A stretch of DNA of 64,000 nucleotides from Glaciimonas sp. CA11.2. Lineage in GTDB: Bacteria > Pseudomonadota > Gammaproteobacteria > Burkholderiales > Burkholderiaceae_D. Every line of letters begins with the position of its first letter. The first letter of the stretch is position 1. Made by a program: the position numbers and the translations under genes. Shown piece by piece: positions 12,567-61,363 of the stretch. The stretch spans positions 5,314,950 to 5,378,949 of the forward strand of contig NZ_JAVIWL010000001.1 of the NCBI RefSeq assembly GCF_034314045.1. Reading direction: 5' to 3'. Under the pieces are notes generated by a model that was not told the DNA's origin, did no database searches, and was given only the letters and a program-made list of their open reading frames with translations.

Positions 12567-12597
12567 GACGTGTGTCCGGGATTGACAGTTCACCTCA

Positions 12598-41999: not shown

Positions 42000-42074
42000 T
42001 TAACACATATCCTAGCGTACTATTTTTTCCGTTCACCCTGTTATGAGGTGAACTGTCAATCCCGGACACACGTC

Positions 42075-42935
42075 TCAAGCAGATGTTTTCTGCCGGTTAA
42101 AATTATCAGCAAAAGCAGCTGGGGATAAATACCCCAATCGTGAATGCCTTCGTTGACGGTTATAAAAGATTTCGATGTACTCACCAATAGATGCCTCAGC
42201 TTCGGCACGGGTGGCATATCGCCGATGATGTACCAGCTCATTTTTTAAGCTGCCCCAACAACTTTCCATTGGTGCATTGTCATAACAGTTTCCTTTGCGT
42301 GACATGGACGCTTGCATGTCAAATTGCTCTAACAACAGGCGATAAGCATGGGCGCAATATTGGCTGCCACGATCAGAGTGATGGATCAGTCCAGCGGATG
42401 GTCGTTGAAGTGCTACTGCACGCCATAGAGCACGGCTGGTTAGCGTTTGCGTCATCCGATCACCCATCGCATAACCGACGATTTCACAGGTAAAGACATC
42501 CTTAATACCAGCCAAATATAACCAGCCCTCTTGAGTCGGAATATAGGTGATATTAGTGACCCATACTTGATTCGGTTGAGTCAGATTAAACGTTTGATTC
42601 AGTAAATTGTCAGCCACTGGAAAGCTATGATTGGAATTGGTCGTCACTTTAAATTGCCGCTTTTGCTTGCAAACAATGCCTAACTGACGACGCAATCTCG
42701 TGAGCCGATCCCGCCCAACCGTAAATCCATCATTTGCCAATTCAGGCTGCAAACGTCTTACGCTATACGTTTCACGGGTACGTCGATGCGCTACTTTGAT
42801 TGCTATTTTTAACCGTTCATCTTCGCAACTGCGCTCGCTCGGAACACGTGTCAGCCAATCGTAAAAACCACTGCGTGATACGACCAATACTTTACACAGT
42901 AGCTTCACAGGATAGTGGAGTTGCAATGTTTTCAC
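42075..42935 (-). CDS. IS3-family OrfB transposase, copy 2
   Basis: 286 aa, differing from copy 1 by very few residues (for example NLTQPNQ for NPTQPNQ and QKTSA for QKKSA). It carries the same WVTNITYI change of the first catalytic Asp. Since orfA is split by the transposon, no OrfAB fusion can be made. Confidence 0.9.
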   Translation of the reverse strand: MKTLQLHYPVKLLCKVLVVSRSGFYDWLTRVPSERSCEDERLKIAIKVAHRRTRETYSVRRLQPELANDGFTVGRDRLTRLRRQLGIVCKQKRQFKVTTNSNHSFPVADNLLNQTFNLTQPNQVWVTNITYIPTQEGWLYLAGIKDVFTCEIVGYAMGDRMTQTLTSRALWRAVALQRPSAGLIHHSDRGSQYCAHAYRLLLEQFDMQASMSRKGNCYDNAPMESCWGSLKNELVHHRRYATRAEAEASIGEYIEIFYNRQRRHSRLGYLSPAAFADNFNRQKTSA

Positions 42936-43194
42936 GTGCGCGTACCGGGTAGCGACTCCCGTGCAAAGTACGCCGTTGCTTTTTTTAATATATCGCGTTC
43001 CTGGCGCGTTTCATGCAGTTCACGCCGCATTTTAGCTAGCTCTTCTTCCAGCTCCGCCACACTTCGAGATCCAGCCACTGTCATCATTTTGCCAGACTTA
43101 TTACCCATGGTAAGAACTACCCATTTGTTCAAATTACTTTGCGACATCCCTAGTCGCATGGCCGCCTCTCTTCCTGACAGACCTTGTTCTAATA
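42932..43194 (-). pseudogene. IS3-family OrfA, 3' part (split by Tn3 element)
   Basis: Codes for the C-terminal three quarters of OrfA (from EQGLSGREAAMRLGMSQ onward). The first codons are at 57854-57913, on the far side of the transposon. Confidence 0.9.
43190..43194. repeat. Tn3 target duplication, left copy (TAATA)
   Basis: TAATA; repeated at 57854-57858 immediately outside the right inverted repeat. Five bp is the Tn3-family value. Confidence 0.92.
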
Positions 43195-43232
43195 GGGGTA
43201 TGGGGAGTAACGGAACAGAAACTACGGTTAAG
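43195..43232. repeat. Tn3-family left inverted repeat
   Basis: 38 bp, starting GGGGTATGGGGAGTAACGGA. Matches the right repeat at about 33 of 38 positions and has the GGGG...TTAAG shape of Tn3/Tn21 ends. Confidence 0.93.
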
Positions 43233-43449
43233 CGTTACAGTTATAATGCTTCTTCCCAACTATAGATTTTTTATATATTGTAGATTTTTATTATCTTTTC
43301 GACCAGAATTAACGGTGTGCCCTCACATCAAACCAGAGATAGTTGCGAATGAACCCGCGTTCAGCCGTGTTGGTGGCAATGCGTAGAAACACGTCTCTAC
43401 ACAAGCGAGGCACCATGCCTCACCTGTGTGAATGCCTTTTTTTCAATAA
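43233..43449. other. Spacer, transposon left end to porin
   Basis: No gene seen. GAGGCACCATGCCTC near the porin stop forms a small stem and may end porin transcription. Confidence 0.4.
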
Positions 43450-44571
43450 TTAGAACAAATGACGGATTCCGACTTGAACACCTGTTTCACTTTGCCCGGC
43501 GCCCGGCGTCAGAAAAGATCCAGTCGTGATGCTGGCACCCGCCATCTTTAACTGCGCGGTATTGGAATTATTCAATCGCGACGCAACGGAATAAAGTCGC
43601 GTCCGTTTAGACAGATCGTAATTCACGATCAGGCTGACCTGTCTGGCATTATTCCCAAAAGAAGAGCTATCCTTGATCAAGCCATAGCCAGCAGCAATCG
43701 TCGTTACAGGGTTGACGCGATAATCTGCGGAAACGCTATAAGTGTTATGATAGTTACCAGGCGTGTTACTTACCGGACCGACGGTCGGATCGTATTTTCC
43801 CGCAGGATTGCTGAGCGCGTTGCCGGTCGTCGCCGAAATCACCTCATTCGCACGGAAATAGCCAAGATAGATTTTTCCGTGGCCATAGTCCACATTCCCG
43901 CCGGCCATGAATTCCTGAACGCGATTGGTGTTGGTAGCATTTGCCGCGATCAGATAAGCCAACGCAAAGAAAACAGGCCCCTGCTGCGTCTGTCCCGCCG
44001 CCTGATAGACCGCATTGCCCGCAATATTGCCAGCTTTTTCGCCCAGCGAGTAATGCAATTCAATTTGTGAATTATAAATTTTCGGCGAAGTATAGCTAAT
44101 GTCGTTATCGACGCGCGCCAGCCAATTGGAAAAGTTGTTGTAAGCAGACCCATAGGTTGCTGCACCGAATGCATCCATGTTCCCGCTATAAGCGAACATT
44201 GGTGTGTTCTGGCGCCCGGCGCGCACTTCACCGAAATTACCTGAAATGCCGACCCAAGCCTGGCGATCAAACAAGCGGAAGGAATTTTGTTGTTGGCCTG
44301 TACCTGGATCAAATCCATTTTCGAGATCGAACGTGGTCTTATAACCGCCACCGAGATCCTCATTACCACGGATGCCCAAGCGACTTGTCATTTCACCGTT
44401 GTTACCGAGCACCGTCAGTGAAGTGTGCTTACCTCCGACCGTTGACGATTGATAGCCACTGAACATATCGTGTACGCCGTAAAGTGTTACCGAAGACTGT
44501 GCGAATGCGGCTGAACTAGCGACCATTCCCAGCGATGCGGCCATTAATGTAATGTTGATATTCTTTTTCAT
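43450..44571 (-). CDS. Gram-negative porin (cargo)
   Basis: 373-aa outer-membrane beta-barrel. It has a cleavable signal peptide (MKKNINITLMAASLGMVASSAAFA, cut before QSSVTLYG), the burkholderial porin start SVTLYG(V/L)xD, the L3-region AWVGISGNFGEVRAGRQNTP, and a C-terminal Phe (VGIRHLF) for BAM recognition. It likely admits gallate or related aromatic acids, judging from the cluster. A 313-bp leader precedes it. Confidence 0.92.
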   Translation of the reverse strand: MKKNINITLMAASLGMVASSAAFAQSSVTLYGVHDMFSGYQSSTVGGKHTSLTVLGNNGEMTSRLGIRGNEDLGGGYKTTFDLENGFDPGTGQQQNSFRLFDRQAWVGISGNFGEVRAGRQNTPMFAYSGNMDAFGAATYGSAYNNFSNWLARVDNDISYTSPKIYNSQIELHYSLGEKAGNIAGNAVYQAAGQTQQGPVFFALAYLIAANATNTNRVQEFMAGGNVDYGHGKIYLGYFRANEVISATTGNALSNPAGKYDPTVGPVSNTPGNYHNTYSVSADYRVNPVTTIAAGYGLIKDSSSFGNNARQVSLIVNYDLSKRTRLYSVASRLNNSNTAQLKMAGASITTGSFLTPGAGQSETGVQVGIRHLF

Positions 44572-44884
44572 AAGTTCTCCCCTTTTCTATATATATATTT
44601 GACGCATTTCATTCAAAAGATATTTGTATTCTTCTTCGGAGTGGTGCAACAGGTTGATTCGATATTTTTTTGGCGTGTAGACAACGCCATCATTTATTCT
44701 TAATGCGCAACAAGCTGTCGTCACGCACTTCGCGCCTTACTCACTCAAGGATCCGTCCATAAATCTCCAAAAAGACGGCGGTGAAATCGCTTTCCACGCG
44801 ACAAGCAGCCTGCACTTATCGCACAATGGGTAATGATCGTTAAAGCGCCGCACGTAAAGTATTTACAAAGTAGTGCTAGCGTAT
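44572..44884. other. Porin leader / spacer
   Basis: 313 bp without a gene. AT-rich near the porin start (a run of TATATATATATT); probably contains the porin promoter. Nothing else is recognised. Confidence 0.4.
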
Positions 44885-45421
44885 TTATTGAATAGACAGT
44901 CGGCGCTTGACAGTCAGTGCCAAGGGCACCGTAAAGAAGAAGTGCGACATGAATCCCCCGATGATCACGACAGGATCATAGTAATTAGGGTGGTTGTCGG
45001 AGGCGATCATGATCGCCACATGCATGATGATCCAGGCAAACATGGCGTAAAAAAGCGCTACTAGCGTTGCTTCATACCCGCGTCGACAAAAATACGGCCA
45101 AATGGCGGCAAATAAGACACCCCAGGCACTTGAGAAAATAAAGTGGATGGCAATACCGATGATGTAAGCCCATATGCCGATCGACTCTTGGACCTCTTTT
45201 CCGAACACCAAGCCCGTTGCGTTTCTAGGAATTCCAGCCAGTGGCAATAAATGCTGCGCTCCTACCCAAACAAGGGCTTCGTAGATCCAGATAACTACTC
45301 CGCCGGTCAAACCAGCGATCACTCCGGCGCGTATGATTGCTTTCCAACTCGGCATTTCTGAAGCGTATGATGTCGAATCACCGTTGCCTTCAACGCCGCT
45401 TATATGTATGTTGCTAGCCAT
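44885..45421 (-). CDS. Hypothetical inner-membrane protein (cargo)
   Basis: 178 aa with four predicted membrane segments (AGVIAGLTGGVVIWIYEALV, IGIWAYIIGIAIHFIFSSAW, ATLVALFYAMFAWIIMHVAI and PVVIIGGFMSHFFFTVPLAL). Start MASNIHISG at 45421. No family that allows a function is recognised; transport or electron-transfer support of the pathway is only a guess. Confidence 0.75.
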   Translation of the reverse strand: MASNIHISGVEGNGDSTSYASEMPSWKAIIRAGVIAGLTGGVVIWIYEALVWVGAQHLLPLAGIPRNATGLVFGKEVQESIGIWAYIIGIAIHFIFSSAWGVLFAAIWPYFCRRGYEATLVALFYAMFAWIIMHVAIMIASDNHPNYYDPVVIIGGFMSHFFFTVPLALTVKRRLSIQ

Positions 45422-45568
45422 GTCTAATCTCCTCTTTTTTATTAAAAAATACTTCCTTACAAACATCACGTTTCACCACATCCTTCAATTGCACGCATAC
45501 CGCGTACACTTTCGAATTTTCGCCAGCGGACATTTGTGAAACGATGCCGCTGTCATTGATAATCGTCA

Positions 45569-46546
45569 CTAGTCAGCGGTCGCATTAAGTACCGGTTGCG
45601 GTGCTGTCAATTCTCCTGTCATCTCTTCTTTACCTGCAAAAAGTAGTCGTTCCGCATACTCCTGCCATGACGCACTCTTTGGGACTTTGTCGAACAAGCC
45701 GTCACTTGCCAGCGTAGCGACCCAGTCAAGTTTTTCTGCGATGCCGACGGCCATCAGTGGCGCAAATCCGGCCTCGCGCACTGTGGCGGCAGATTCACGC
45801 ATTTCTTCAGCCCGCCGCTTGCCATGCTGTACAACACGATTAAAGAAATAAGTACCTTGGGCCGACCAGTCAATTTGCGGGAAGGTTTCAGCCAGCGTCG
45901 GCAGCACCTTGTCGGCCACCCCGTAGTACAGCGCGGTGCTGTAGCTTTCGATGACCAGCGCCTCCAGACCTTTGATCATGATGCTGCGGCACATTTTGAT
46001 TGCGGAAGCTACACCGATGTCGACGGCAACTATCGTGGCATCCATGCCCCAGGCGCGCAGCGCAGGTGCCAGCTCGTCGGCTCTTGCGCCACCAAGAAGC
46101 ATTGGCACCCTAATGCCATGCGGCGGTACCGAGCTCATCACCCCGGCTTCCACATAATGGCCTCCTGCCTCTTCAATGGCCTACGCCGCCTGACGTTTAG
46201 TACCGGGCGAAGCCGAGTTCAGGTCTAGGAATAGGGTACCCGGCCGAATATGTCGGGCTGCTTCCTGTGCCACTGCCAGCGTATTAGAAGCGGTCACCGC
46301 CGAAATAATCAGTGTTGCCGCGTCGCATAAGGCTCCCAAATTGGGGGCAATATCGATGCCAGCGTCGATGCCAGCGCGAGCGGCAGTCTTTAAAAGCTCC
46401 AGCTCCGTACCAGAATTCTCAAGCTTTCGGTCGTAGGTTGTGACGGACGTAATCCCACGCTGTCCCTTGAGCCCGGCAGCAAATATCCTACCGACCTCGC
46501 CATAGCCGATTATTCCAATATAATTATTTGTCATGGTACAGGTCAT
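45569..46546 (-). pseudogene. NAD(P)-dependent DUF1932-type dehydrogenase with amber stop (cargo)
   Basis: 325-codon frame resembling the 6-phosphogluconate dehydrogenase-like DUF1932 family: Rossmann start YIGIIGYGEVGRIFAAGL, NSASPGTKRQAA, then TAG at 46181-46183, then AIEEAGGHYVEAGVMSSVPP and a helical C-domain (IKMCRSIMIKGLEALVIES). The protein is continuous across the stop in one frame, so a single base change is enough. It follows the aldolase gene directly. Its reaction in gallate metabolism is unknown, perhaps reducing or oxidising an intermediate. The pathway does not need it on current knowledge. Confidence 0.8.
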
Positions 46547-46547
46547 A

Positions 46548-47237
46548 TCAGTCGATGTAACGCAGCCCTGCCTTGGCTAGTAAATCGCGCATTTGATACA
46601 TGTCAAGGCCCAGGACGCCGCTGGCAAGCGTTTCCCTTTTTTCGGCTTCATTAGCTTCGCGCGCCGCCGCCGCCGCCGCAGTCGCGGCCGCAAATTGGGC
46701 GGGTACCACAACGATGCCGTCGTCGTCGGCGATCACCACATCACCCGGATTGACCATCGCGCCGCCGCAGACCACAGGTATGTTGACCGAACCCAAGGTC
46801 GCCTTGATGGTGCCCTTGGCGCTGATCGCCTTTGAAAATACTGGAAACTGCATCGCGGTCAAATCCTTGATATCGCGTACACCGGCGTCAATGACAAGAC
46901 CCTTGGCGCCGCGAGCACGAAAGGAAGTCGCGAGCAGGTCGCCGAAATAGCCATCGGTACATTCCGCCGTAACGGCTGCTACTACGACATCTCCCGGTTC
47001 AATTTGCTCGGCGGCGACATGCATCATCCAATTGTCGCCAGGTTGTAGCAACACTGTTACCGCTGTGCCGCACATGTATGCACCGACATAGATAGGACGG
47101 AGGTACGGCCACATCAGGCCAACCCGCCCCATGGCTTCATGAATGGTAGCGGAGCCGAACGCTGAGAGAGCTTCGACGTCGGCCTTACTTGCACGTTGGA
47201 TATTGCGTTTGACGATGCCGAGATTATTCAGTGACAT
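46548..47237 (-). CDS. galC: 4-carboxy-4-hydroxy-2-oxoadipate aldolase (cargo)
   Basis: 229-aa RraA-fold class II aldolase splitting CHA into pyruvate and oxaloacetate, the last gallate/protocatechuate-4,5 step. [21 protein letters not shown] and VRDIKDL hold the pyruvate- and metal-binding Arg and Asp. Start [10 protein letters not shown] at 47237. Overlaps the ligJ gene (13 bp), so coupled. Close to LigK/GalC/HMG aldolases. Confidence 0.9.
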
Positions 47238-48291
47238 GTTGTGTATCCTCTTGTTTCGTTTTAGCATTTAGAGCAGCGTCCAGACGCGGGAATACACGGC
47301 GGGCATTGCCTTCGTAAATCTTGTAGCGGTCTTCAGCGCTTAGCTGGACTGACGCTTCGATATAACGCTTGGTATCGTCGAAATAGTTGCCGGTCTCGGG
47401 ATCGATCCCCCGTACCGCGCCGATCATTTCGGAGGCGAACAAAACGTTGTCAACCGGGATAACTTTGGTCAGTAAATCGATCCCCGGCTGGTGATAGACA
47501 CAAGTGTCAAAGAAGATGTTGTTGAGCAGATGCTCTTTCAGTAGCGGCTTCTTCATTTCTTGCGCCAACCCACGGAAACGGCCCCAGTGATAAGGCACGG
47601 CGCCGCCGCCGTGCGGAATCACGAACTTCAACGTGGGGAAGTCATGGAACAGGTCGCTGGACAAGAACTGCATAAAAGCCGTGGTGTCGGCATTCAGGTA
47701 ATGCGCGCCGGTGGTGTGAAAGCACGCGTTGCAACTGGTGCTGACATGGACCATTGCCGGAATTTGATACTCAACCATCTTTTCATAAAGGGGATACCAG
47801 TGGCGATCCGACAGTGGTGGCGATGTCCAGTGGCCACCGGAAGGGTCGGGATTCAGATTGATGCCGACAAAGCCGTATTCGGCCATGCATTTTTCAAGCT
47901 CGGGAATGCAACTGCTCGGATCCATACCGGCTGACTGCGGCAACATCGCCGCGCCGATAAAGTTATCCGGGAACAGTTGCGATACCCGGTAACACAGCTC
48001 ATTGCAGATCGCAGCCCAGGTGGCGCTGGTGTTGAAGTCGCCAATATGGTGCGCCATGAAACTTGCGCGCGGCGAGAAAATCGTCATATCCAGGCCACGC
48101 TGCTTCATTAGACGCAACTGGTTAGTTTCAATCGATTCGCGCAGTTCGTCATCGCTGATTCGTAACTCCGAAGGTTTCGGTCCAAGCTTCGGAGTCGCAA
48201 GGTTGGCGATCTGGCGATTGCGCCAATCCTCCAGCGCTTTAGGGGCGGTAGTGTAATGGCCGTGGCAATCAATGATTAACGGATGTTGCAT
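47224..48291 (-). CDS. ligJ: 4-oxalomesaconate hydratase, LigJ type (cargo)
   Basis: 355-aa amidohydrolase-superfamily enzyme adding water to 4-oxalomesaconate to give CHA. Metal ligands are in [12 protein letters not shown]; the body has [68 protein letters not shown] and [14 protein letters not shown], all LigJ-like. This is the Sphingobium type and not the unrelated GalB of Pseudomonas. Lies between galD and galC. Confidence 0.93.
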
Positions 48292-48292
48292 A

Positions 48293-49432
48293 TTATTTTC
48301 CTTTCCAGGCTGATGCGGGAATCATGACTTCGCCACGCATGATCAGACGAGCGGTGCGAAGCAGGGCGGCGCGGGTAACGCTTTGTGGATGAGCAGGATC
48401 CAGTCCGAGTTCGACGCTAAATTCACCGGTCGGATGCTCGACAGATATGATTTTGGTGATGCCATCCGGGACGACAGCCAAGCCTTGGGCGACCGATCCT
48501 TCCAGTACGCAAGCGGTGGCCACGGTCACTGCGGCTAGTACGCCGATGGCGTCGTGACAGACGTGAGGAATGAAACAGCGGGTAATAATATTACCTGCGG
48601 CTTGTGGTAGGGCAAGCAGGCACATCTTTGGATAATTTTTTTTACTGACGTCGCCCAGTCCCATCATCGGGCCTGCCTGTAGCCGTAAGGCTTCTAGTTT
48701 TCCCTTCAGTTCGGTGTCGGCGTCTAGCTGTGCCACGGTCTCGTTACCACTGCGGTTGAGATCCGCAGCCCTTACCAGCACCATCGGCATGCCATTGTCA
48801 ATCAGTGTCGCGTCGATGGTGAAAGGCGCAACGTTACTACCTTGCACGGCGATGGTGTCCAGTGCGCGTCCCGTTGGCAGCAACGCAGGGCATACTGAAC
48901 CGGCTGTATCGAGGAAGTTAATAGTGACGGGTGCGGATGTACCGGGTACGCCGTCGATTCTGGCATCGCCGCCATATTGCATCCGACCGTTTGGTGTTTG
49001 GACTGTGATGTCGCATTGCATGCCGGTGTTCAGGGTCAACACTCTGACGGTCGTGGTGTCGCCTTGGGCAACGATGATGCCGCGCTCTAGCGCGAACGGG
49101 ACAACGGCGGCCAGCATATTGCCGCAGTTAGGCGTGGTATCGACCGTGTTGTTGTCGGGCTGCAATTGCGCAAACAGGAATTCGAGGTCAACGCCGGGCT
49201 TGCTGCTGAGGCCTACGATGCCAGCTTTGCTGGTCAGCGGATGAGCCCCTCCCAGTCCATCAATCTGGCGGCGGTCCGGCGAACCCATGACGGCCAGCAA
49301 TATGCTGTCGCGCAAGGCCCGATCCTGCGGCAAGTCGGAGTTGAGGAAGAATGGTCCGCGTGAGGTGCCACCACGCATCAGCATGCAAGGCACTGGAAGC
49401 AGATCAGATTCAGTGTTAAATGTGGTGGTCAT
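48293..49432 (-). CDS. galD: 4-oxalomesaconate tautomerase (cargo)
   Basis: 379-aa PrpF/diaminopimelate-epimerase-fold isomerase, converting the keto form of 4-oxalomesaconate to the enol form for the hydratase. CMLMRGGTSRGPFF, TPNCGNMLAAV and the C-terminal VEHPTGEF segment mark the GalD/PrpF family. Start MTTTFNTESD at 49432. Transcribed leftward and divergent from the LysR gene across about 140 bp, so probably regulated by it. Confidence 0.9.
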   Translation of the reverse strand: MTTTFNTESDLLPVPCMLMRGGTSRGPFFLNSDLPQDRALRDSILLAVMGSPDRRQIDGLGGAHPLTSKAGIVGLSSKPGVDLEFLFAQLQPDNNTVDTTPNCGNMLAAVVPFALERGIIVAQGDTTTVRVLTLNTGMQCDITVQTPNGRMQYGGDARIDGVPGTSAPVTINFLDTAGSVCPALLPTGRALDTIAVQGSNVAPFTIDATLIDNGMPMVLVRAADLNRSGNETVAQLDADTELKGKLEALRLQAGPMMGLGDVSKKNYPKMCLLALPQAAGNIITRCFIPHVCHDAIGVLAAVTVATACVLEGSVAQGLAVVPDGITKIISVEHPTGEFSVELGLDPAHPQSVTRAALLRTARLIMRGEVMIPASAWKGK

Positions 49433-49571
49433 GGTAAAAAGGTCATCTGACTTGAATGTGTCTAGTATCTGCAGGTAAGCGCGTCTTTTGGTTGCCTTAT
49501 ACCGTGATAAGCGTTCTAATTTGCTTATCAAGTTGTATCAGTGAGCGCGTCTTCAGCTATCCTCCTACTCC

Positions 49572-50777
49572 ATGCCTATCCTGAACCTTCACCATCTTCA
49601 TGTATTTAGCACCGTTGCTGCCACGGGAGGGATACGTCGCTCTGCGGACCTGTTGTATCGCGCGTCTTCTGCGGTGGGGAGATCGGTGGCGGCGCTGGAA
49701 AAACACCTTGAAATTCAGCTGTTTGAGCGCAAAGGAAACGGTATGCTATTGACGGCGGCCGGAGAAACCGTGCGCTTGCGGGCCCACATTATCGAGGCGG
49801 AGTTGCGCGATGTTCGCGATGACGCGGTGCGGTTTGCTGCGCGCGAAGGCGGCTTTGTTGGGAGCATGGAAGCACTGTTTAATGAGCGCCGCCTGCAGAG
49901 CGCGGTCCTGCTGGCTGACGTGCATCACATGCCAAGCGTGGCACGTGTGATGGGCATGTCGCAGTCGGCGATTAGCCAGGCGATAACAAAACTGGAGGAC
50001 GCTCTTGGGCAGACGCTGTTCCGTCGTACCGCGCAAGGGATGATGCCTACTGACGCTGGAACACGCTGGATTTTACGATTCAATCGCGCGCTGGTGGAAC
50101 TGGATCATATCGTTTCCGACGTTGCCGCGCTAAAGGGCGTGCTCGAAGGCGTCATCACGGTGGGTGCGCTTCCGCTTGCGCGCACGTTGGTGCTGCCCAC
50201 TGCGATCACATCCATACTGAAAAAGTATCCGCAACTGCGGGTGCGTTCATTGGAAAGCACCTACGAAGAACTCACCGCAGGACTGCTTAGCGGTCGGGTT
50301 GATTTCATTATCGGCGCGCTACGAACCCCAACCGAGAACGGGCTGCAAGCATCGACCTTGCTGCAGGACGAGACGGCAGTGATTGCCCGAGCCGACCATC
50401 CGTTGGCATCAAAGTCTGTGCTGAGCTTTGATGATTTGCAACAGTACGCTTGGGTATTGTCCCGCGCCGGGACGCCGCTGCGAGCGTCGCTGGAACAATT
50501 TTTTCAAGACCACGGTAGAAAATCGCCACAACCCGCAGCAGAAACAGGAGACCTTGCCCTCCTTCGCGGACTGCTTGTGTCAAGCGATATGATCACTGTG
50601 CTGTCTGCCCATCAGCTGCATTATGAAATTACCACTGGGCAGTTGACGGTATTGCGGTTTCCAATGGATGGTCTCAACCGGCAAATTGGCGTGACAACGC
50701 GTGCTGGCGCGTACTTGTCTCCCGGTGCAAATGCGCTGCTGGCAGAACTTCAATCCGTGGCCAAAATCTGGCAATAG
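49572..50777 (+). CDS. galR: LysR-type regulator with two HTH domains (cargo)
   Basis: 401 aa, about 100 more than a usual LysR. Two LysR-type helix-turn-helix regions are seen: residues about 5-64 (LHHLHVFSTVAATGGIRRSA ... LEKHLEIQLFERKGNGM) and about 105-165 (LLADVHHMPSVARVMGMSQS ... ALGQTLFRRTAQGMMPTDAG). The effector-binding domain follows (about 190-400). Positioned between the divergent catabolic arms, it is the obvious regulator. Symbol by analogy with the gallate regulator of Pseudomonas. Confidence 0.85.
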   Translation: MPILNLHHLHVFSTVAATGGIRRSADLLYRASSAVGRSVAALEKHLEIQLFERKGNGMLLTAAGETVRLRAHIIEAELRDVRDDAVRFAAREGGFVGSMEALFNERRLQSAVLLADVHHMPSVARVMGMSQSAISQAITKLEDALGQTLFRRTAQGMMPTDAGTRWILRFNRALVELDHIVSDVAALKGVLEGVITVGALPLARTLVLPTAITSILKKYPQLRVRSLESTYEELTAGLLSGRVDFIIGALRTPTENGLQASTLLQDETAVIARADHPLASKSVLSFDDLQQYAWVLSRAGTPLRASLEQFFQDHGRKSPQPAAETGDLALLRGLLVSSDMITVLSAHQLHYEITTGQLTVLRFPMDGLNRQIGVTTRAGAYLSPGANALLAELQSVAKIWQ

Positions 50778-51082
50778 CGCATATTTTGACGGTCTCACCT
50801 CGATAAGATTTGTCATTGCACTTGAAGCAATAATTTCGCAGCGTGAGACGAAATACATCTATATTTAGTCAATGAATTGAAGTGGGCCACCTACCTCCAA
50901 TAAGTAAGTTGCAACGCTCTCGAAGCTGAGAGCAATGCGACATATAGGCACTCTGCGTAGACTTCAATTATCAAGTTACTACATCTGCATGCCAGCAGTA
51001 ACAGCGTCTTGGTGGCCCGCTACTGCGGTAATTAGCCCCATAAATTACAAAAACAATAATTGAATTTCTCTCAGGAGACGAA
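50778..51082. promoter_or_regulatory. galT-galA upstream region
   Basis: 305 bp. GCTCTC (50916-50921) and GAGAGC (50928-50933) form a dyad that could bind the LysR protein. AGGAGA precedes the MFS start. No gene is seen. Confidence 0.4.
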
Positions 51083-52411
51083 ATGACTACTTCTCAAACG
51101 CTCGATGTTCGGGCTTATATTAATGACCGGAAAATGACCGGTTACCAATGGTTATTGCTTGGGCTTTGCTTTCTCATCGTGGCGACTGATGGTATGGATG
51201 TCGCCATCATGGGTTTTCTCGCACCGGGCATCACCAAAGAGTGGGGTATTGGCCGTGCGGTCTTTGGTCTTGTGATGAGCGCCGCCCCACTCGGGCTGGC
51301 TATCGGCGCATTGCTTGTCGGCCCGCTATCGGACCGATTCGGTCGCAAAAAACTATTAATGACCGCCGTGGCGTTGTTCAGTATATTCAGCATCCTTAGC
51401 GCCTACAGTACAGGCGTGACATCGTTATCCGTGCTGCGCTTTCTGACCGGACTTGGGTTAGGTGCGGCCATGCCGAGTACTACCACGCTGTTATCAGAGT
51501 ATCTGCCCGAGCGGTCGCGCAGCACGTTGTTGGCGTTGATGTTCACCGGCTTTAATCTCGGTTCGGCACTGGTCGGGTTCGGTGCCGCGGCGTTGTTGCC
51601 GCATTACGGATGGCGTACGGTGTTGATGGTCGGCGGTGCGATTCCTCTGGCCTGTCTGCCATTTTATTTGTGGCTCATACCTGAATCAGCACGCTTTTTG
51701 GTGGTACGAAACTTTCCCAGTGACAAGATCGCGCGTACTCTACGAAGAGTTTGCGGTGGCAGCTTTTCCAGCGGCACGCGCTTCCTCCTGAATGAACCAC
51801 CGGTGCAAAAAGGTATGCCTGTAAAAGCATTACTGTCGCCGTCCTATCGCAAGATGACGATCGCGCTATGGGTTACCTATTTCATGGGATTGCTGGTCAT
51901 CTATCTTCTCAGCGGCTGGCTGCCGACGCTCATTAAAGATGCTGGCCTGCCAATCGAGCGTGCCGCTAATCTCACCGCACTGTTCCAGCTCGGTGGCACC
52001 GTAGGGGCTTTGGCCGTAGGTTACTACATGGACAAATTGACGCCGAACCGTGTTATTGCAACGGCATATATCGGCGGCGCGATATTCATTGTGCTGTTGG
52101 CTTCGGGTAGCGCCATCTCCAGCTTGTTCGGCGTCTACGTACTGCTTGCTGGCTTCTGCATGAGCGGCGCGCAGACCGGCATGAATGCTTTTGCACCGGC
52201 GTGCTATCCGACTGCGGTGAGAGCGACGGGCGTGAGCTGGATGTTGGGTATAGGCCGCTTTGGCAGCATCTCTGGCTCATTTGCCGGTGGTCTGATGCTA
52301 TCGATGGGATGGGGATTCAGCGCGGTCATCGCTATTCTTGCAGTGCCCGCGATGATTGCAGCATTTTCAATTGTTTTCACCAGGTTTGCCCCCCGCGCCG
52401 CGAGCGCATAA
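51083..52411 (+). CDS. galT: MFS aromatic acid:H+ symporter (cargo)
   Basis: 442-aa transporter of the AAHS family with 12 predicted membrane helices. Family signatures: ATDGMDVAIMGFLAPGI in helix 1, the loop 2-3 motif VGPLSDRFGRKK, and LIPESARFLV between the halves. AAHS proteins import benzoate-type acids; gallate is the likely substrate by cluster context. Start ATG 51083 with AGGAGACGAA upstream. Confidence 0.92.
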   Translation: MTTSQTLDVRAYINDRKMTGYQWLLLGLCFLIVATDGMDVAIMGFLAPGITKEWGIGRAVFGLVMSAAPLGLAIGALLVGPLSDRFGRKKLLMTAVALFSIFSILSAYSTGVTSLSVLRFLTGLGLGAAMPSTTTLLSEYLPERSRSTLLALMFTGFNLGSALVGFGAAALLPHYGWRTVLMVGGAIPLACLPFYLWLIPESARFLVVRNFPSDKIARTLRRVCGGSFSSGTRFLLNEPPVQKGMPVKALLSPSYRKMTIALWVTYFMGLLVIYLLSGWLPTLIKDAGLPIERAANLTALFQLGGTVGALAVGYYMDKLTPNRVIATAYIGGAIFIVLLASGSAISSLFGVYVLLAGFCMSGAQTGMNAFAPACYPTAVRATGVSWMLGIGRFGSISGSFAGGLMLSMGWGFSAVIAILAVPAMIAAFSIVFTRFAPRAASA

Positions 52412-52550
52412 GACATGTCGGATGAACGTTGAGCAGGTACGCCTCGCTCTCCGTTTGATCGGAAATTCCACTGGCACTGGCGCAATATGACTATCGCATT
52501 TTTCTTTCCACACATCATGTCCGTGCCTGCGCGCGGATTAGGAGCTCATT

Positions 52551-53855
52551 ATGGCCAACATCATCGGCGCGATAGCGTCATCCCACACTCCCACGATTGG
52601 CTTTGCGCTGGATACCGGCAAACAACAGGACCCAGCTTGGGCGCCCATCTTCAAGGCTTACGAACCGGTCAGGCAATGGCTTTCAGAAAAAAAACCAGAT
52701 GTGATTCTGATGATCTACAACGATCACGTCACCTCTTTCTTTTTCGATCATTATTCTGCGTTCGCGCTCGGCATCGGTGACTCCTGGCGGGTTGCAGATG
52801 AAGGCGGCGGTGCGCGTGCATTGCCGCCAGTGGACGGCCATCCCGCACTGTCGCGGCATATCGGTGCGTCGCTCATGGCCGACGAGTTCGATATGTCTTT
52901 TTTCCAGGATAAAGGGCTGGACCACGGCTGCTTTTCTCCGCTCTCTATTCTGTGGCCAAACACACCAAGCTGGCCCGGTGCCATCGTGCCACTGCAGGTG
53001 GGCGTGCTGCAATTCCCGGTGCCATCCGCACGCCGTTGTTACAAGCTGGGTAATGCGTTACGACGTGCAATTGAAAGCTATCCCGACGATATAAAGGTCG
53101 TACTGGTTGCCACCGGTGGACTATCTCACCAAGTACATGGTGAGCGCGCCGGATTTAACAATACCCCGTGGGACCACGAATTTCTGAACCTGATTGAAAA
53201 CGACCCTGAGTCCCTCACCAACATGACCCATGCCGATTTTGCGCGGCTAGGCGGATTTGAAAGCGCCGAGGTCATCATGTGGTTGATCATGCGCGGCGCT
53301 ATGTCAAGTCACATCAAGTGCCTGCATAAAGACTACTACCTGCCGTCCATGACCGGCATCGCCGTTGCGCTGTATGAGAACGATGCTACCGCGTCAGAGA
53401 CTATCACTGCGCGCGCACGTGAAGAACACATGAACCACATGAATCATCAGCTAGCGGGTATCGAAAAACTACCAGGAACCTATCCTTTTAGCCTTGAGAC
53501 CAGTGTCCGAACCTACCGCATAAACCAGTATCTCCATCAACTGGTAGAGCCAGAATTTCGGGTACGTTTTCTTGGCGATGCCGAAAGCACCTTTGAGGAA
53601 GCGGGGTTGACCGAGGTGGAGAGGAAGATGATTACTGAGCGCGACTGGCGGGCCATGATTCACTACGGCGTTATTTTCTTTTTGTTAGAAAAGCTAGGAG
53701 CAGTCGTCGGAGTGTCCAACCTGCATATTTATGCCGCCATGCGCGGCGAATCATTGGATACATTTCGCCAGACGCGCAATGCGCCAGGTGCACTGTATTC
53801 GGTGGCAGGAAAGGTAGATAAGGATTTAGCATGGAATAGCGAAATCAGGAAATGA
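52551..53855 (+). CDS. galA: Gallate dioxygenase (cargo)
   Basis: 434-aa extradiol ring-cleavage enzyme opening gallate at the 4,5 bond to 4-oxalomesaconate. The N-terminal ~280 residues are a LigB-type catalytic domain with Fe ligands expected in SSHTPTIGFA, YNDHVTSFFFD and ATGGLSHQVHG. The C-terminal ~130 residues are LigA-like (YRINQYLHQLVEPEFRVRFL ... RDWRAMIHYG), so both domains are fused as in Pseudomonas GalA. Length agrees with GalA (about 420). It makes the substrate for the leftward genes. Confidence 0.94.
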   Translation: MANIIGAIASSHTPTIGFALDTGKQQDPAWAPIFKAYEPVRQWLSEKKPDVILMIYNDHVTSFFFDHYSAFALGIGDSWRVADEGGGARALPPVDGHPALSRHIGASLMADEFDMSFFQDKGLDHGCFSPLSILWPNTPSWPGAIVPLQVGVLQFPVPSARRCYKLGNALRRAIESYPDDIKVVLVATGGLSHQVHGERAGFNNTPWDHEFLNLIENDPESLTNMTHADFARLGGFESAEVIMWLIMRGAMSSHIKCLHKDYYLPSMTGIAVALYENDATASETITARAREEHMNHMNHQLAGIEKLPGTYPFSLETSVRTYRINQYLHQLVEPEFRVRFLGDAESTFEEAGLTEVERKMITERDWRAMIHYGVIFFLLEKLGAVVGVSNLHIYAAMRGESLDTFRQTRNAPGALYSVAGKVDKDLAWNSEIRK

Positions 53856-53965
53856 ATCGTCATAAAGTTGACTTGATATGTGATCGATAATTTGATTTTG
53901 TCGAGCAATCAACCTTATGAAACAGATTTTGGGTGGACTATAAGACTCACACCTAATTAGCCCTT

Positions 53966-54571
53966 TTATAGCAATTTCTGGCCGTCCGGCCGGAGTTCTC
54001 CTTGAGGAGAAACGTGCCGATACAACGTCTGCCGGGTAATTCCCATTTCGTCGCAAAGATCGCCTACGGTTGTCTCAGGCTGCCCCATGGCAGCCATTGC
54101 CAGACGCAGCTTGGCAGGTGTCATTTTGAATGGTCTCCCACCTTTTCGGCCCCGGGCGCGTGCCGAAGCCAGTCCGGCAATGGTACGTTCGGAAATGAGT
54201 TCTCGTTCGAACTCAGCCAACGCGGCGAAGATACCAAAGACCAGTTTGCCAGCGGCGGTCGTGGTATCTATTGCTACACCATCTCCGGATAACACCTTGA
54301 GTCCCACACCTCGACCGGTTAGATCATGCACCGTGTTGATGAGATGACGTAAATTCCGGCCGAGCCGATCCAGTTTCCACACCACCAAGGTATCGCCTTC
54401 GCGCAATGCTTTGAGGCACGCGGTGAGGCTGGGGCGATCTTCTCGTTTGCCAGAAGCTTGGTCTTCATAAAGATGTTTTGGATCGACGCCAGCAGCCACC
54501 ATAGCATCGTGCTGCAAGTTGGTGTTCTGGGAGCCGTCCGCCTTTGATACGCGCATGTAGCCAACTAGCAT
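53966..54571 (-). CDS. tnpR: Tn3-family serine resolvase
   Basis: 201-aa resolvase. Catalytic Ser in GYMRVSKADGS, LDRLGRNLRHL, and a C-terminal HTH (TTVGDLCDEMGITRQTLYRH). The start MLVGYMRVS at 54571 is chosen; an upstream ATG adds five residues. Divergent from tnpA, with res between them. Confidence 0.94.
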   Translation of the reverse strand: MLVGYMRVSKADGSQNTNLQHDAMVAAGVDPKHLYEDQASGKREDRPSLTACLKALREGDTLVVWKLDRLGRNLRHLINTVHDLTGRGVGLKVLSGDGVAIDTTTAAGKLVFGIFAALAEFERELISERTIAGLASARARGRKGGRPFKMTPAKLRLAMAAMGQPETTVGDLCDEMGITRQTLYRHVSPQGELRPDGQKLL

Positions 54572-54591
54572 ATTTTTACCTGTCACTCACT

Positions 54592-54714
54592 TGTCACTTA
54601 TACGGTCGATTATGTGACATTGTCCCGCAGTATTACTTCTTCAACAAAATTTGTCACTTAACCCGTTATTTATTGTATGACATACAAAGGGCTATAATCG
54701 ATAAAAATGTGACA
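54592..54714. other. res recombination site (three subsites)
   Basis: Three TGTCA/TGACA-framed dyads: site I 54592-54619 (TGTCACTT...ATGTGACA), site II 54652-54682 and site III 54683-54714. The arrangement between divergent tnpR and tnpA is the standard Tn3 form. Confidence 0.8.
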
Positions 54715-54756
54715 CCAATTCGACCCATTCGACCCACGTTCTTATGATCATTTATT

Positions 54757-57700
54757 GTGCCTGTTAATTTTCTTACTCCTAGTCAGATTCGGAGCCATGG
54801 CCGTTACGATGGTCCGCCTACCGTAGACGAACTCTCACGCTATTTTCATCTGGACGACACCGATCATGCGTTAATCAATACGCGTCGGGAAAAACACACC
54901 AGGCTTGGATTTGCACTTCAACTCGCCACCGTCCGGTTTCTCGGTACCTTTCTCGATGATCCGGCGGACGTCCCCAACGAAGTTATCAGGATACTGAGCC
55001 AGCAACTGGCGATTGACGATGGCGATTACCTTTCAAAATACCGCAATAGTCGGCAACGCTGGGAACACGCGGCTGAAATACGCAGGCATTACGGTTACCG
55101 GGAATTTGCCGAGTATCCGGTTGGTTTCCGTCTGGGGCGATGGCTCTATGCCTTGTGCTGGACCGGAACCGATCGGCCGAGCGTGCTGTTCGAGCACGCC
55201 ACTACTTGGCTATTGACCGGCAAGGTTCTACTGCCAGGCGCGACCGTGCTGGAACGTTTTATCGCGCGATTACGGCAGCGCGTGGAAACGCGGCTCTGGC
55301 GCATGTTGGCGCACGGACTGAGTCTCGAACAGCGTATGCGGTTAGATGACTTACTCACGGTTCCGGCAGGCAACCGCAATTCGACGCTTGACCGACTGCG
55401 TACCGGTCCGGTTATGGTCAGTGCCTCGGCGCTGGTGCGCGCTCTTTTGCGCATCGAGGCCATTCGTGCGTTAGAAATTAGGTTGCCGGGGACGGCAAAA
55501 ATTCCGCCGAGTCGCATTGCCGCGTTGGCCCGCTTCGCCAACACATCGAAAGTCACGGTGGTGTCTAGACTGCCTGAGGCACGCCGCATGGCAACGCTGG
55601 TGGCTTTCGTTTATACGCTGGAAGCCACAGCGCAGGACGATGCGTTGGAAGTCATGGAAATATTGCTGCATCAGTTGTTCAGCGGCGCGATGAAAGTTGA
55701 TCAAAAAGCGCGCCTGCGAAGTCTGAAAGATCTGGATGCGGCAGCGACGGTGTTGGCGCAGGCTTGTGCATTTCTGCTCGACGTCGAATTGCCCGATAAA
55801 AAGTTGCGCGCAACGGTGTTCGAGAAAATTCAACAGGAACGACTCGCTGAAGCTATGCAAAAGGTGAGCCCCTTAGTTCGGCCGCCACAAGACGTTTTTT
55901 ATCGGGAACTACACGCCCGTTATCTTAGGGTGCGGCGGTTTTTGCCTTCGCTACTACAACATATACATGTTGGTGCCGGACCCGCCGGCCGCACTGTGCT
56001 GGAAGCCATCAAATATCTGCATGTGCATGAAATCGATCATAAACGGAAGATCGATCCTCCGATGGCGATCGTGACGAAAGCATGGTTACCGCATGTGATC
56101 CCGGGAGAGGGCCGACTGGATCAACGAGCGTATATGTTTTGTGCGCTTGATCAGTTGCGTTCTGCATTGCGGCGACGCGATGTATTTGCTGAGCCAAGTT
56201 GGCGCTACGCCGATCCGCGCAAAGGATTATTGTCAGACGCCGACTGGACGGCGACGCGACCGGTTATTTGCCGCACGCTCGGATTTTCTTCGGACGTCAC
56301 ACCGGTGCTGGCGGGCTTGGCGACAGAACTGGATCAAACGTATCGCGCTGTGGCGGCACGCCTGCCGGAAAATCCGGCTGTGCGCATTGTGTGCAATAAC
56401 GAGCAACATGATCTCGTTCTGAGTCCGCTTGACAAGATCGAAGAGCCATCCTACTTGCTGGCATTGCGAGCAGAAGTGGCGGCGCGTCTGCCGCGTGTCG
56501 ATGTGGCGGAAATTCTGCTTGAGATTGCCGCCCGTACCGATTTTGCGGAGGCGTTCACGCATGTGAGCGAACGCGAGGCGCGGGCGGCCGACTTGGTCAC
56601 CAGTGTCTGCGCCGTATTACTGGCCGAATCGTGCAACACCGGATTTGAGCCTTTGGTGCGGCAAGATGTCGCGGCCCTGCGACGTGATCGACTGTCTTGG
56701 GTCAATCAAAATTACATTCGCGATGAAACGCTGATTGCCGTGAACATGCGTCTGGTGTCGGCGCAAAACAAGATCGGATTGGCGCATGCCTGCGGCGGAG
56801 GCGAAGTCGCTTCTGCTGATGGCATGCGTTTCGTAGTTCCGGTGCGCACCGTGCACGCCGGACCAAATCCCAAGTATTTTGGTATAGGCCGCGGCGTTAC
56901 CTGGTACAATATGCTGTCCAGCCAATTTACTGGCTTGAATGCCATCACGGTACCCGGTACATTGCGCGATAGCCTGGTCTTACTAGCCGTCGTGCTGGAA
57001 CAGCAAACCGAGCTGCAGCCGACCCACATCATGACCGACACGGGCGCTTATACGGACATCATCTTCGGTCTGTTTAGATTGCTGGGATATCGCTTCAGTC
57101 CTCGCCTTGCCAATGTCGGTGGCACGCGGTTTTGGCGCATCGACCCCGATGCCGATTACGGCCCGCTCGACAAGATTGCGAAACAACGGGTCAACATGGC
57201 ACTGGTCGCTGAGCAATGGGACGATATTTTGCGCTTAATCGGTTCGCTGAAGTTAGGACGGATACCGGCTACAGGGATCATGCGCACGCTGCAGGTCGGC
57301 GACCGGCCTACGCGACTGGCCAAAGCCCTGGCAGAATTCGGACGTATTGAGAAATCGTTACACACACTGACCTTCATCGATGATGAAACCAAACGCCGTA
57401 ATATTCTGATTCAGCTAAACCGTGGCGAAAGCCGCCACGCTCTTGCGCGGGCCATATTCCACGGAAAACGTGGCGAGTTGCATCAGCGTTATCGAGAAGG
57501 CCAGGAAGACCAACTGGGTGCTTTGGGGCTGGTCGCCAATGTCATAGTATTGTGGAATACCATTTATATGGAAGCGATTTTGAACAAACTACGCTGTGAA
57601 GGTTACGTGGTGATAGACGAAGATGTGGCGCGATTGTCACCCTTGATTCATGAGCATATCAACATGATGGGACGCTATTCTTTCGCGGTTCCAGAATCTG

Positions 57701-57765
57701 TGCTTCGCGGAGAATTGCGACCGCTTAGGTCGCCGGGCGATACGGATAGGGAGTCTATTCCGTAA
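54757..57765 (+). CDS. tnpA: Tn3-family transposase
   Basis: 1002-aa DDE transposase; GTG start giving MPVNFLTPSQ, the common Tn3 beginning. Catalytic region visible as PTHIMTDTGAYTDIIFGLF (first D), YRFSPRLANV and GLVANVIVLWNTIYMEA with the C-terminal E nearby (HQRYREGQEDQLG). Length normal (about 1000). Appears intact; its ends and target duplication indicate recent activity. Confidence 0.96.
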   Translation: MPVNFLTPSQIRSHGRYDGPPTVDELSRYFHLDDTDHALINTRREKHTRLGFALQLATVRFLGTFLDDPADVPNEVIRILSQQLAIDDGDYLSKYRNSRQRWEHAAEIRRHYGYREFAEYPVGFRLGRWLYALCWTGTDRPSVLFEHATTWLLTGKVLLPGATVLERFIARLRQRVETRLWRMLAHGLSLEQRMRLDDLLTVPAGNRNSTLDRLRTGPVMVSASALVRALLRIEAIRALEIRLPGTAKIPPSRIAALARFANTSKVTVVSRLPEARRMATLVAFVYTLEATAQDDALEVMEILLHQLFSGAMKVDQKARLRSLKDLDAAATVLAQACAFLLDVELPDKKLRATVFEKIQQERLAEAMQKVSPLVRPPQDVFYRELHARYLRVRRFLPSLLQHIHVGAGPAGRTVLEAIKYLHVHEIDHKRKIDPPMAIVTKAWLPHVIPGEGRLDQRAYMFCALDQLRSALRRRDVFAEPSWRYADPRKGLLSDADWTATRPVICRTLGFSSDVTPVLAGLATELDQTYRAVAARLPENPAVRIVCNNEQHDLVLSPLDKIEEPSYLLALRAEVAARLPRVDVAEILLEIAARTDFAEAFTHVSEREARAADLVTSVCAVLLAESCNTGFEPLVRQDVAALRRDRLSWVNQNYIRDETLIAVNMRLVSAQNKIGLAHACGGGEVASADGMRFVVPVRTVHAGPNPKYFGIGRGVTWYNMLSSQFTGLNAITVPGTLRDSLVLLAVVLEQQTELQPTHIMTDTGAYTDIIFGLFRLLGYRFSPRLANVGGTRFWRIDPDADYGPLDKIAKQRVNMALVAEQWDDILRLIGSLKLGRIPATGIMRTLQVGDRPTRLAKALAEFGRIEKSLHTLTFIDDETKRRNILIQLNRGESRHALARAIFHGKRGELHQRYREGQEDQLGALGLVANVIVLWNTIYMEAILNKLRCEGYVVIDEDVARLSPLIHEHINMMGRYSFAVPESVLRGELRPLRSPGDTDRESIP

Positions 57766-57815
57766 CCTTTTATATGAAAATTTTGTGGCTATCTAGTGTT
57801 TATATGACTTTTAGA

Positions 57816-57853
57816 CTTAATCGCAGTTTCTGTTCCGTTGCTCCCCACACCCC
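57816..57853. repeat. Tn3-family right inverted repeat
   Basis: Reverse complement begins GGGGTGTGGGGAGCAACGGA; 38 bp, pairing with 43195-43232. Confidence 0.93.
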
Positions 57854-57973
57854 TAATACCATTTTTACCGCTTCAGCTTTGTACTCGTCGCTGTATCTCT
57901 TTTGCGTTTTCATCCACACTCCTTTGAACTCAGTTTATCAAATTCGTGTGTCCGTTTTTTTCAGACTACCTCA
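57854..57973 (-). mobile_element. IS3-family copy 2, remaining end
   Basis: Completes the IS3 copy begun at 42044: OrfA start codon (57911-57913), AAGGAG ribosome site and the terminal CGGACACACG / TGAGGTAGTC end. Starts with the second TAATA. Confidence 0.93.
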
Positions 57974-58263: not shown

Positions 58264-58771
58264 TTACGGGTTGGCCCCTCCTTTTTCAGCAGTGCTGTTT
58301 GGTTTGACATTGCGCTGTTGCCGTTTCTTGCTGGTGGCCAATCGATACGATTCGCCGTTCATTTCCAGGATGTGGACGTGATGGGTAAGCCGGTCAAGCA
58401 AGGCGCCAGTCAGCCGCTCCGAACCGAGGACGCTGGTCCACTCGTCAAACGGTAAATTCGAGGTCACCAGCGTGGCACCGTGCTCATAGCGTCGGCTAAA
58501 GACCTCAAACAACAATTCCGCACCGACCGCTGTGAACGGCACATAGCCCAGTTCATCGATAATCAGTAACTTCACGTTAGTCAGTTGCTTTTGCAAGGCA
58601 CGCAGTCGTTTCTCGTCACGCGCTTCCATCAGTTCATGGACCAGGGCGGCGGCCGTCGTAAAGGCAACGCTGTGTCCTTTCTGACAGGCAGCTAATCCTA
58701 GTGCCAGCGCAGTATGCGTCTTGCCAACACCCGAAGGTCCTAACGCGATGACGTTCTCGCGCTTATCAATC
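58264..58771 (-). pseudogene. istB: IstB, C-terminal part (split by IS66)
   Basis: Contains the Walker A region (ALGPSGVGKTHTALALGL), Walker B LLIIDELGYVPF and sensor region LVTSNLPFDEW. The N-terminal third is at 61364-61697. The frame reconstructs when the IS66 element and one 8-bp duplication are removed. Confidence 0.9.
58764..58771. repeat. 8-bp target duplication of IS66, left
   Basis: TATCAATC, repeated at 61364-61371. Confidence 0.92.
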
Positions 58772-58847
58772 GTAAGCGATCATTTGAGTACGTCTGGTAA
58801 ATCGTACCGAGAATCGTGATGATGGTGTCCACAATAAGGGGACAGCT

Positions 58848-59270
58848 ATGGAAGAGAATCACTTCGGCTTATCGTGTACTTTGATTGTCAAGCGCTTACG
58901 GAATGGTCGTTGTCAGTATGACCCACGGGCCAAACGCGAATTAGTGGAAGCCAGTTTTCAGCCTGGGGTATCGGTGGCCAAACTGGCGTACCAGCATACG
59001 CTCAATGCCAATTTGTTACGTAAGTGGATTGTCCAATATCAACGCAAAAGCGGTGCGGCCCCGATGAAGGTGACGCGTGTCCCGGCACTGCTTTCTGCAT
59101 TTATTCCTGTGGTGACAGTTAACACTGCAACGCCCGTGACGATGCCCACGCTGCGTGCGAGATTGCCCAACGGCATTGATATCGATGCCAATTGCACGAC
59201 CCGCGACGAGATATTGTCGCTCCTTGAGATGCTTTGCCAGTTGCCATGTTCCGCCTTGACCCGGGACTGA
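58848..59270 (+). CDS. tnpA: IS66 accessory protein TnpA
   Basis: 140-aa protein with an N-terminal Hin/transposase-type HTH (YDPRAKRELVEASFQPGVSV, NLLRKWIVQYQ shape). It is the first of the three IS66 frames and overlaps tnpB. GGGGACAG upstream. Confidence 0.9.
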   Translation: MEENHFGLSCTLIVKRLRNGRCQYDPRAKRELVEASFQPGVSVAKLAYQHTLNANLLRKWIVQYQRKSGAAPMKVTRVPALLSAFIPVVTVNTATPVTMPTLRARLPNGIDIDANCTTRDEILSLLEMLCQLPCSALTRD

Positions 59271-59596
59271 AGGTGCATGTGCACCGGGATGCGGTCGATG
59301 GTCGCAAGAGCATTAACGGACTGGCGGCCATCGTCGAGCAGGCGCTAGGACTCGATCCGTTTGCCCGGGCCGTGTATGTCTTTTGTAACCGGCGGCGCGA
59401 CCGTATCAAACTCTTGCTCTGGGATCGCAACGGATTCTGGTTAATGTTCAAGCGGCTTGAGGCAGACCGCTTCGCCTGGCCGCGTGAAGCCGCGCTGCTG
59501 GAACTGAGCGTCGAACAATTACACTGGCTGCTCGATGGCATTGACCTCAGCGCCATGCACAAACATCCGCTGCGCAGCTATGCGCGGGCGAGCTAA
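59246..59596 (+). CDS. tnpB: IS66 accessory protein TnpB
   Basis: 116 aa (MFRLDPGLKVHVHRDAVDGR ... VYVFCNRRRDRIKLLLWDRN). This is the conserved IS66 Orf2 protein of unknown mechanism needed for transposition. Overlaps the tnpA end. Confidence 0.94.
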   Translation: MFRLDPGLKVHVHRDAVDGRKSINGLAAIVEQALGLDPFARAVYVFCNRRRDRIKLLLWDRNGFWLMFKRLEADRFAWPREAALLELSVEQLHWLLDGIDLSAMHKHPLRSYARAS

Positions 59597-59692
59597 GACA
59601 AATAGTGCAGTTTCATTCGATTGTTGTCGGTAAACAACGGGTAACGCCCTTATGTTGAAATGACGTAAACCTATTTAGCGCGACATTCCGGT

Positions 59693-61321: not shown

Positions 61322-61363
61322 ATCAATTTATGCCGCAAGGGACGTGGATGATTGATCGCTTAC

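Follow-up and report, generated by a model that had tools for sequence, protein, structure and literature searches.

A Tn3-family transposon with a predicted gallate degradation cluster, inserted at different, unrelated sites in two genera of a bacterial family

Introduction

The best-known catabolic transposons are plasmid-borne and act on petroleum or man-made compounds. In the Tn3 family, the transposase TnpA acts on the 38-bp ends and generates a 5-bp target duplication, the resolvase TnpR resolves the cointegrates at the res site, and exchange of resolvases and transposases between elements is common. The catabolic transposons of the TOL plasmid pWW0, presumably Tn4651 and Tn4653, carry aromatic catabolic genes as does the element described here, but they have other substrates and are plasmid-borne, and the two pWW0 transposases are only 20% (the one that we take to be that of Tn4651) and 30% (presumably that of Tn4653) identical to ours; the R100 transposase used for comparison, which we assume to be that of Tn21, is 29% identical. 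Among the named elements compared, the transposase is closest to that of plasmid pRA2, in an element that we take to be Tn5563. This element resembles ours by its TnpA (65% identity), by its divergent tnpR and tnpA genes and by similar ends starting with GGGG, whereas it differs by its mer genes, by a PIN-type toxin-antitoxin pair located beside tnpA and by a TnpR that is only 49% identical. The resolvase, in contrast, has its likeness in a module located beside TniQ/TniB, presumably of the Tn402/Tn5053 family, with which the element shares tnpR and most of res (74% at the DNA level, 88% at the protein level), although its own transposase is of the Tn3 type.

In the sections of the literature that bear on these elements, Tn5563a is placed in the Tn3 subgroup and genes for the degradation of organic compounds are included among the Tn3 passengers (PMC7157771). 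Tn4676, which likewise carries aromatic catabolic genes, is presented there as a class II transposon for carbazole on pCAR1 (PMC7494797); it is set apart from our element by this description only, that is by its substrate and its plasmid location. Tn4676 and Tn4655 are both named as catabolic elements in passages where the word gallate does not occur (PMC7494797, PMC13343209), and PMC5897751 has gallate genes in a table, its remark on transposons being about the upper diphenylamine pathway. The plasmid records and open-licence papers covered by our search yielded no transposon named for gallate (TnCentral and ISfinder lay outside its scope). The earlier note on this DNA had proposed the same, and its statement holds for the records and papers searched, with the reservation that an unnamed copy, 96% identical, is already present in public data.

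Here, we analysed a stretch of 64,000 nucleotides of the genome of Glaciimonas sp. CA11.2 (contig NZ_JAVIWL010000001.1, positions 5,314,950 to 5,378,949), hereafter the window, whose positions are used throughout. Our reading, to which we give a probability of about 0.93, is that it contains a complete Tn3-family transposon with a full, regulated gallate cluster, and that this transposon has passed from genus to genus within a bacterial family. The boundaries, the duplications, two insertions of the whole unit, a third, truncated copy and the spread across genera can all be read from the DNA itself.

Results and discussion

Boundaries and target site

The transposon, complete and of the Tn3 family, extends from 43195 to 57853 (14,659 bp, 14.7 kb), exactly as the earlier note had placed it. 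End comparison and pattern search both recovered the 38-bp inverted repeats that it had reported, the left one at 43195-43232 (plus strand) and the right one at 57816-57853 (minus strand), with 34 of 38 positions alike, and the 5-bp duplication TAATA is present on both sides (43190-43194 and 57854-57858). A degenerate pattern of these ends, allowing up to 3 mismatches, occurs at 2 places in the window, whereas the average over 100 shuffles is 0.00. Three features of the Tn3 family are found together: a TnpA of approximately 1000 residues with the Tn3 DDE domain, inverted repeats of approximately 38 bp and a 5-bp duplication. Base composition gave no sign of a foreign origin, the GC content being 53.2% in the element and 53.5% in the remaining window. 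An Rfam search of 38000-62000 gave no match, no significant fold was detected in 43233-43449, and promoter-like (15 vs 13.2) and terminator-like sites (17 vs 15.5) were barely more frequent than in shuffles.

The insertion point lies in orfA of an IS3-family element on the minus strand, whose 3' part (orfB side) occupies 42044-43194 and whose 5' part (start of orfA) occupies 57854-57973. An uninterrupted copy of the same element (1266 bp, 11332-12597, plus strand) is present in the window and provides a natural empty-site control. Once rejoined, the flanks restore a full IS3 element that is 99.6% identical to this copy, with 5 mismatches, so that the clean split claimed before was confirmed. 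The left and the right flank of the transposon both cover positions 116-121 of the IS3 copy, which corresponds to the 5-bp duplication plus one chance base, and the TAATA stretch is single in the uninterrupted copy. Since the insertion took place within one of two IS3 copies of such high identity, the doubling of the IS3 element probably came first. These two near-identical copies (11332-12597 and 42044-57973) are inverted with respect to each other and enclose approximately 30 kb of chromosomal genes, including dxs, a moaA-like gene, thiC and suf. A matching target duplication is absent from both copies, so that a past inversion between them is possible. Immediately to the right of the split IS3, a cluster of IS21-type and IS66 transposase genes is located at 58264-63229.

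Transposition module

The tnpA gene (54757-57765, plus strand) is an open frame of 1002 codons whose product covers the DDE_Tnp_Tn3 domain entirely (389/389), together with DUF4158, and reaches 1011 bits on the NCBIfam model transpos_Tn3 (cut-off 500). Facing away from it, tnpR (53966-54586, minus strand, 206 aa) is also open and encodes a serine resolvase (Resolvase, PF00239) of the Tn402/Tn5053 TniR type. The region between them (54587-54756) is a candidate res site, proposed because it contains two dyads (54592-54619 and 54652-54682) and is homologous to DNA beside other resolvase genes; all of the 161 aligned positions are identical in the Gout2 copy described below, which is 9 bases shorter here. 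Of the tnpR-res-tnpA arrangement proposed earlier, the two genes are thus well founded, and res keeps the rank of a candidate.

Among the matches listed from the protein collection, the closest other TnpA is 85% identical (P0003), followed by proteins at 71-72%; among those listed from plasmids, the best TnpA reaches 66%. Judged by identities (65% to pRA2, 20-30% to pWW0 and R100) and not by a tree, TnpA falls with the Tn5563-type elements in the Tn3 subgroup. The 88% match of TnpR is the resolvase beside TniQ/TniB on plasmid pPNP1, and the DNA match (74% over 741 bases) continues into the res region up to approximately 54721; a scan of 12 frames of the element identified no tniA, tniB or tniQ. 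The transposition module is, on these similarities, a mosaic, with a transposase of the Tn5563 kind and a resolvase of the Tn402/Tn5053 kind.

Several partial relatives were noticed during these comparisons. Another genome of the window's genus (G002) has a broken TnpA relative (58-63% identity), with a resolvase of a different type (37%) close by. In the window's own genome, the second contig (123 kb) bears a lone transposon-like end (G000:C2:50455-50485; L008, L092) with 3 mismatches in 31 bases, and neither a second end nor other element DNA was found in the 20 kb examined. Plasmid pPNP1 carries a 3.4-kb unit (L011, 8504-11889) bounded by identical 38-bp ends of the same type and by a 5-bp duplication, ATAGT; it contains LysE and Lrp-type genes and no annotated tnpA, lies close to the Tni-element resolvase gene, and is possibly a non-autonomous relative.

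Cargo genes and predicted pathway

On the minus strand, the cargo comprises successively a porin gene, a membrane-protein-like gene, a DUF1932 dehydrogenase gene, galC, ligJ and galD, followed on the plus strand by lysR, galT and galA; to the right of the cargo lie tnpR (minus strand) and tnpA (plus strand). Profile and structure matches confirmed the families previously assigned to galA, galD, ligJ, galC, galT, the porin and the LysR regulator, and two cargo genes were added to them, the DUF1932 and the membrane-protein-like genes. The gallate dioxygenase gene galA (52551-53855, plus strand) reaches 768 bits on NF009904 (cut-off 412), and its product matches DesB (3wku, 1.5e-166) across residues 1-421 of 434, with the same fused LigB-LigA form. 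The 4-oxalomesaconate tautomerase gene galD (48293-49531, minus strand, the true start being probably near 49432) reaches 519 bits on NF033377 (cut-off 440) and matches solved 4-oxalomesaconate isomerases (PDB 6p3j). The 4-carboxy-4-hydroxy-2-oxoadipate aldolase gene galC/ligK (46548-47267, minus strand) reaches 400 bits on TIGR02798 (cut-off 304.5; PDB 3noj, 4e-82), so that GalA, GalD and GalC all exceed their curated NCBIfam cut-offs. The hydratase (47224-48291, minus strand; Pfam Amidohydro_2, no NCBIfam match) has the 4-oxalomesaconate hydratase 2gwg as its best solved relative (1.5e-202) and is of the LigJ type, not GalB.

The galR-like LysR regulator (49572-50777, plus strand, 401 aa) has two HTH regions. 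This double form was first regarded as an oddity and then dismissed as such, two HTH_1 stretches being present in 10/10 homologues scanned, drawn from at least 120; among the matches listed, many homologues are named as regulators of gallate degradation. LysR-type binding motifs in 49301-51100 were no more frequent than expected (3 found vs 5.0 in single-base shuffles). The MFS aromatic acid transporter gene galT (51083-52411, plus strand) remains below the curated cut-offs of both TIGR00895 (393 vs 418.6 bits) and PcaK (466 vs 770 bits), and the porin (43450-44571, minus strand; Porin_4, PF13609, 9.6e-50), a possible route through the outer membrane, has a general family match without a gallate-specific one. 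The small membrane-protein-like gene (44885-45469, minus strand, start uncertain) is described as such from its translation and matches no Pfam or NCBIfam family. The DUF1932/NAD-binding dehydrogenase gene (45569-46546, minus strand) is interrupted by an in-frame TAG in the window, where it has 12 bases more than in the Gout2 copy; it is open in the two other copies.

As in known gal/lig pathways, a predicted enzyme is available for every step that leads from gallate to pyruvate and oxaloacetate, and gallate degradation is the function predicted for the cluster. The proposal of a complete route from uptake to central metabolites is supported in this way for the enzyme families, whereas the porin and the transporter are attributed to gallate by their position in the cluster and their general family. 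In the proposed scheme, gallate would enter through the porin and then the MFS transporter, GalA would open the ring to give 4-oxalomesaconate, GalD and LigJ would convert the latter into CHA, and GalC would split CHA into pyruvate and oxaloacetate. The probable activator of the two divergent operons is the LysR protein, which perhaps responds to 4-oxalomesaconate, reported in PMC9942251 as the effector of P. putida GalR. At the level of the transposon, TnpA would act on the 38-bp ends and produce the 5-bp duplication, and TnpR would resolve the cointegrates at res. The transposition chemistry, the enzyme activities and a growth benefit are in this scheme what we infer from the genes.

Outside transposons, Herbaspirillum and Duganella gal clusters have their six core genes arranged and oriented as in our element, with identities of 62-86% in the best segments, and five Herbaspirillum loci also have the porin, in the same place, and the membrane protein. 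In contrast to our element, neither tnpA nor tnpR was found in the flanks examined of any of the 79 GalA loci other than the Undibacterium one presented below.

Other copies of the element

A search of 392 family genomes, drawn from a larger group, revealed a complete second element, 96% identical end to end, in the genome recorded as Glaciimonas sp. Gout2 (G322), which is of another genus than the window's. This copy has its own duplication, TATTT, on both sides, and its ends are alike at 34/38 positions. Its insertion site is unrelated and is not an IS3 element, the left neighbour being a molybdopterin oxidoreductase gene and the right one a PPIC-type isomerase gene. None of its 11 genes, that for DUF1932 included, has an internal stop, its tnpR extends two residues further to its stop, and it encodes letter for letter the regulator protein P0122, attributed by NCBI to Glaciimonas sp. 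Gout2. With two insertions that differ in duplication and in host genus, the sequences compared show at least two transpositions of the whole unit, and the claim that it moved as one piece, made earlier from the split IS3 alone, is strengthened by this end-to-end copy.

A third copy was found on an 18-kb contig of an Undibacterium MAG (L012 = G376:C50), in which the gal cluster and the 3' half of tnpR, with the same galA-tnpR junction, are 97% identical to the window; this contig lacks the left end, res and tnpA. Both sides run into the same IS6/IS240-type element in opposite orientation (L012 11154-11965), and on the left side, where the contig ends, 100/100 bases match it. It is likely that the IS6/IS240-type element trimmed the transposon by insertion and deletion, although the left contig end may be an assembly artefact, and this element is possibly a second way of moving the gallate pathway.

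Distribution, transfer and selection

Among the matches listed, the element exceeds 90% identity in 3 of the 392 family genomes, its own included. In a second sample of 399 genomes drawn from the order, only the window's own copy was listed above 74% (G322 and G376 being absent from that listing). The shared parts of the element are 96-97% alike among copies, against 75% for uvrB between the window and G322, 79% for a 0.6-kb part of uvrB between the window and G376, and 72% for aceK between the window and the Undibacterium MAG. Such a difference from housekeeping genes indicates, as far as sequence comparison can, that the element spread between genera by transfer and not by descent. The two genes replaced the window's aconitase as controls, which was rejected because the genome has other aconitase matches (pieces of 66-69%, at C1:4.49 Mb); its pieces are 67-73% identical in G322 and 68-71% in G376. 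This AcnA (39008-41791), which is not the sole aconitase and whose closest named relatives among the matches listed are from Massilia sp. TWR1-2-2 and Polaromonas, may have been acquired too.

GalA and LigJ each have one strong match in the window's genome (G000), in G322 and in G376. At 1e-60, GalA is absent from all four other genomes of the window's genus, one of which (G001) has a weak match (26%, E 7e-4), and G322 has an additional weak one (31%, E 7e-4). To place the cargo, the best 80 of 364 GalA relatives were used, and a tree was built on 79 rows, namely 77 of these 80 (L043, L057 and L074 being excluded for a stop in the matched stretch) plus two rows. The three mobile copies are united in a single clade (100/100), whose sister group consists of 20 Oxalobacteraceae rows. 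All six core gene segments occur at 60% identity or more in 20 of these 80 loci, the Undibacterium one included, which alone among the 80 has tnpR in the flanks examined; tnpA occurs in none of these flanks. The position of the GalA clade and the shared core genes suggest that the cargo was probably captured from an Oxalobacteraceae genome.

Between the window and Gout2 copies, dN/dS ranges from 0.06 to 0.35 in all ten genes compared (the broken DUF1932 gene being excluded), with 0.25 for tnpA, 0.27 for tnpR (from 9 changes) and the highest value, 0.35, for the membrane-protein-like gene (from 11 changes). We see in these ratios signs of purifying selection on the element genes. The overall difference of 4% is uneven, with identities of 93-99% per kb across the first 11 kb, which suggests recombination among copies; the transfer would thus be not very recent, or would have proceeded via intermediates with recombination. 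No conjugative carrier was identified.

Alternative explanations

A 5-bp duplication taken alone proves only that two ends moved jointly, and a cargo-free Tn3 element could in principle have entered the IS3 first, the gal cluster being recombined into it later in this genome. We regard this assembly in place as highly improbable, since the Gout2 copy has the same cargo, junctions and ends at another site with a duplication of its own, and since the galA-tnpR junction recurs in the Undibacterium MAG. The cluster could also serve another 3,4,5-trihydroxylated or protocatechuate-type substrate, as GalA-type enzymes belong to the LigAB superfamily and the transporter scores fall short of their cut-offs. 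The score of GalA on the gallate dioxygenase model, its DesB-like fused form and the many LysR homologues named as gallate regulators argue against it, and none of the 12 frames scanned was identified as a CHMS dehydrogenase, an enzyme that protocatechuate 4,5-cleavage would be expected to need. Another substrate is on this evidence improbable.

The transposon might finally be a fixed island, whose ends and genes persist although movement has stopped. G000 and G322 have one full copy apiece among the matches listed, these copies differ by 4%, and a cargo gene is decaying in the window, which is also one of the points that count against our preferred reading; all three observations are in agreement with such an arrest. 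The open and apparently constrained tnpA and tnpR genes, the two intact ends and an insertion that probably postdates the IS3 doubling speak for continued movement, so that we consider a fixed island rather unlikely, while giving it more weight than the two former explanations. The preferred reading is therefore still that of a complete gallate transposon that moved as a unit between genera.

Significance

Catabolic Tn3-family transposons are a known kind of element, and it is the gallate cargo that is new, as far as our searches reached. One compact transposon brings together what is predicted to be a complete pathway for gallic acid, a phenol common in plants, and the whole unit lies at unrelated sites in two genera, where it provides each time the sole strong match to the key enzyme GalA. 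From strain names only, one may guess at a spread among cold-habitat strains feeding on gallate-like phenolics. We give even odds to the broader view that a self-contained gallate transposon circulates among Oxalobacteraceae and gives genomes lacking GalA the whole pathway at once, its core having later been captured by an IS6-like element in Undibacterium. Whether one transposition event is enough to gain a natural carbon source can thereby be tested directly.
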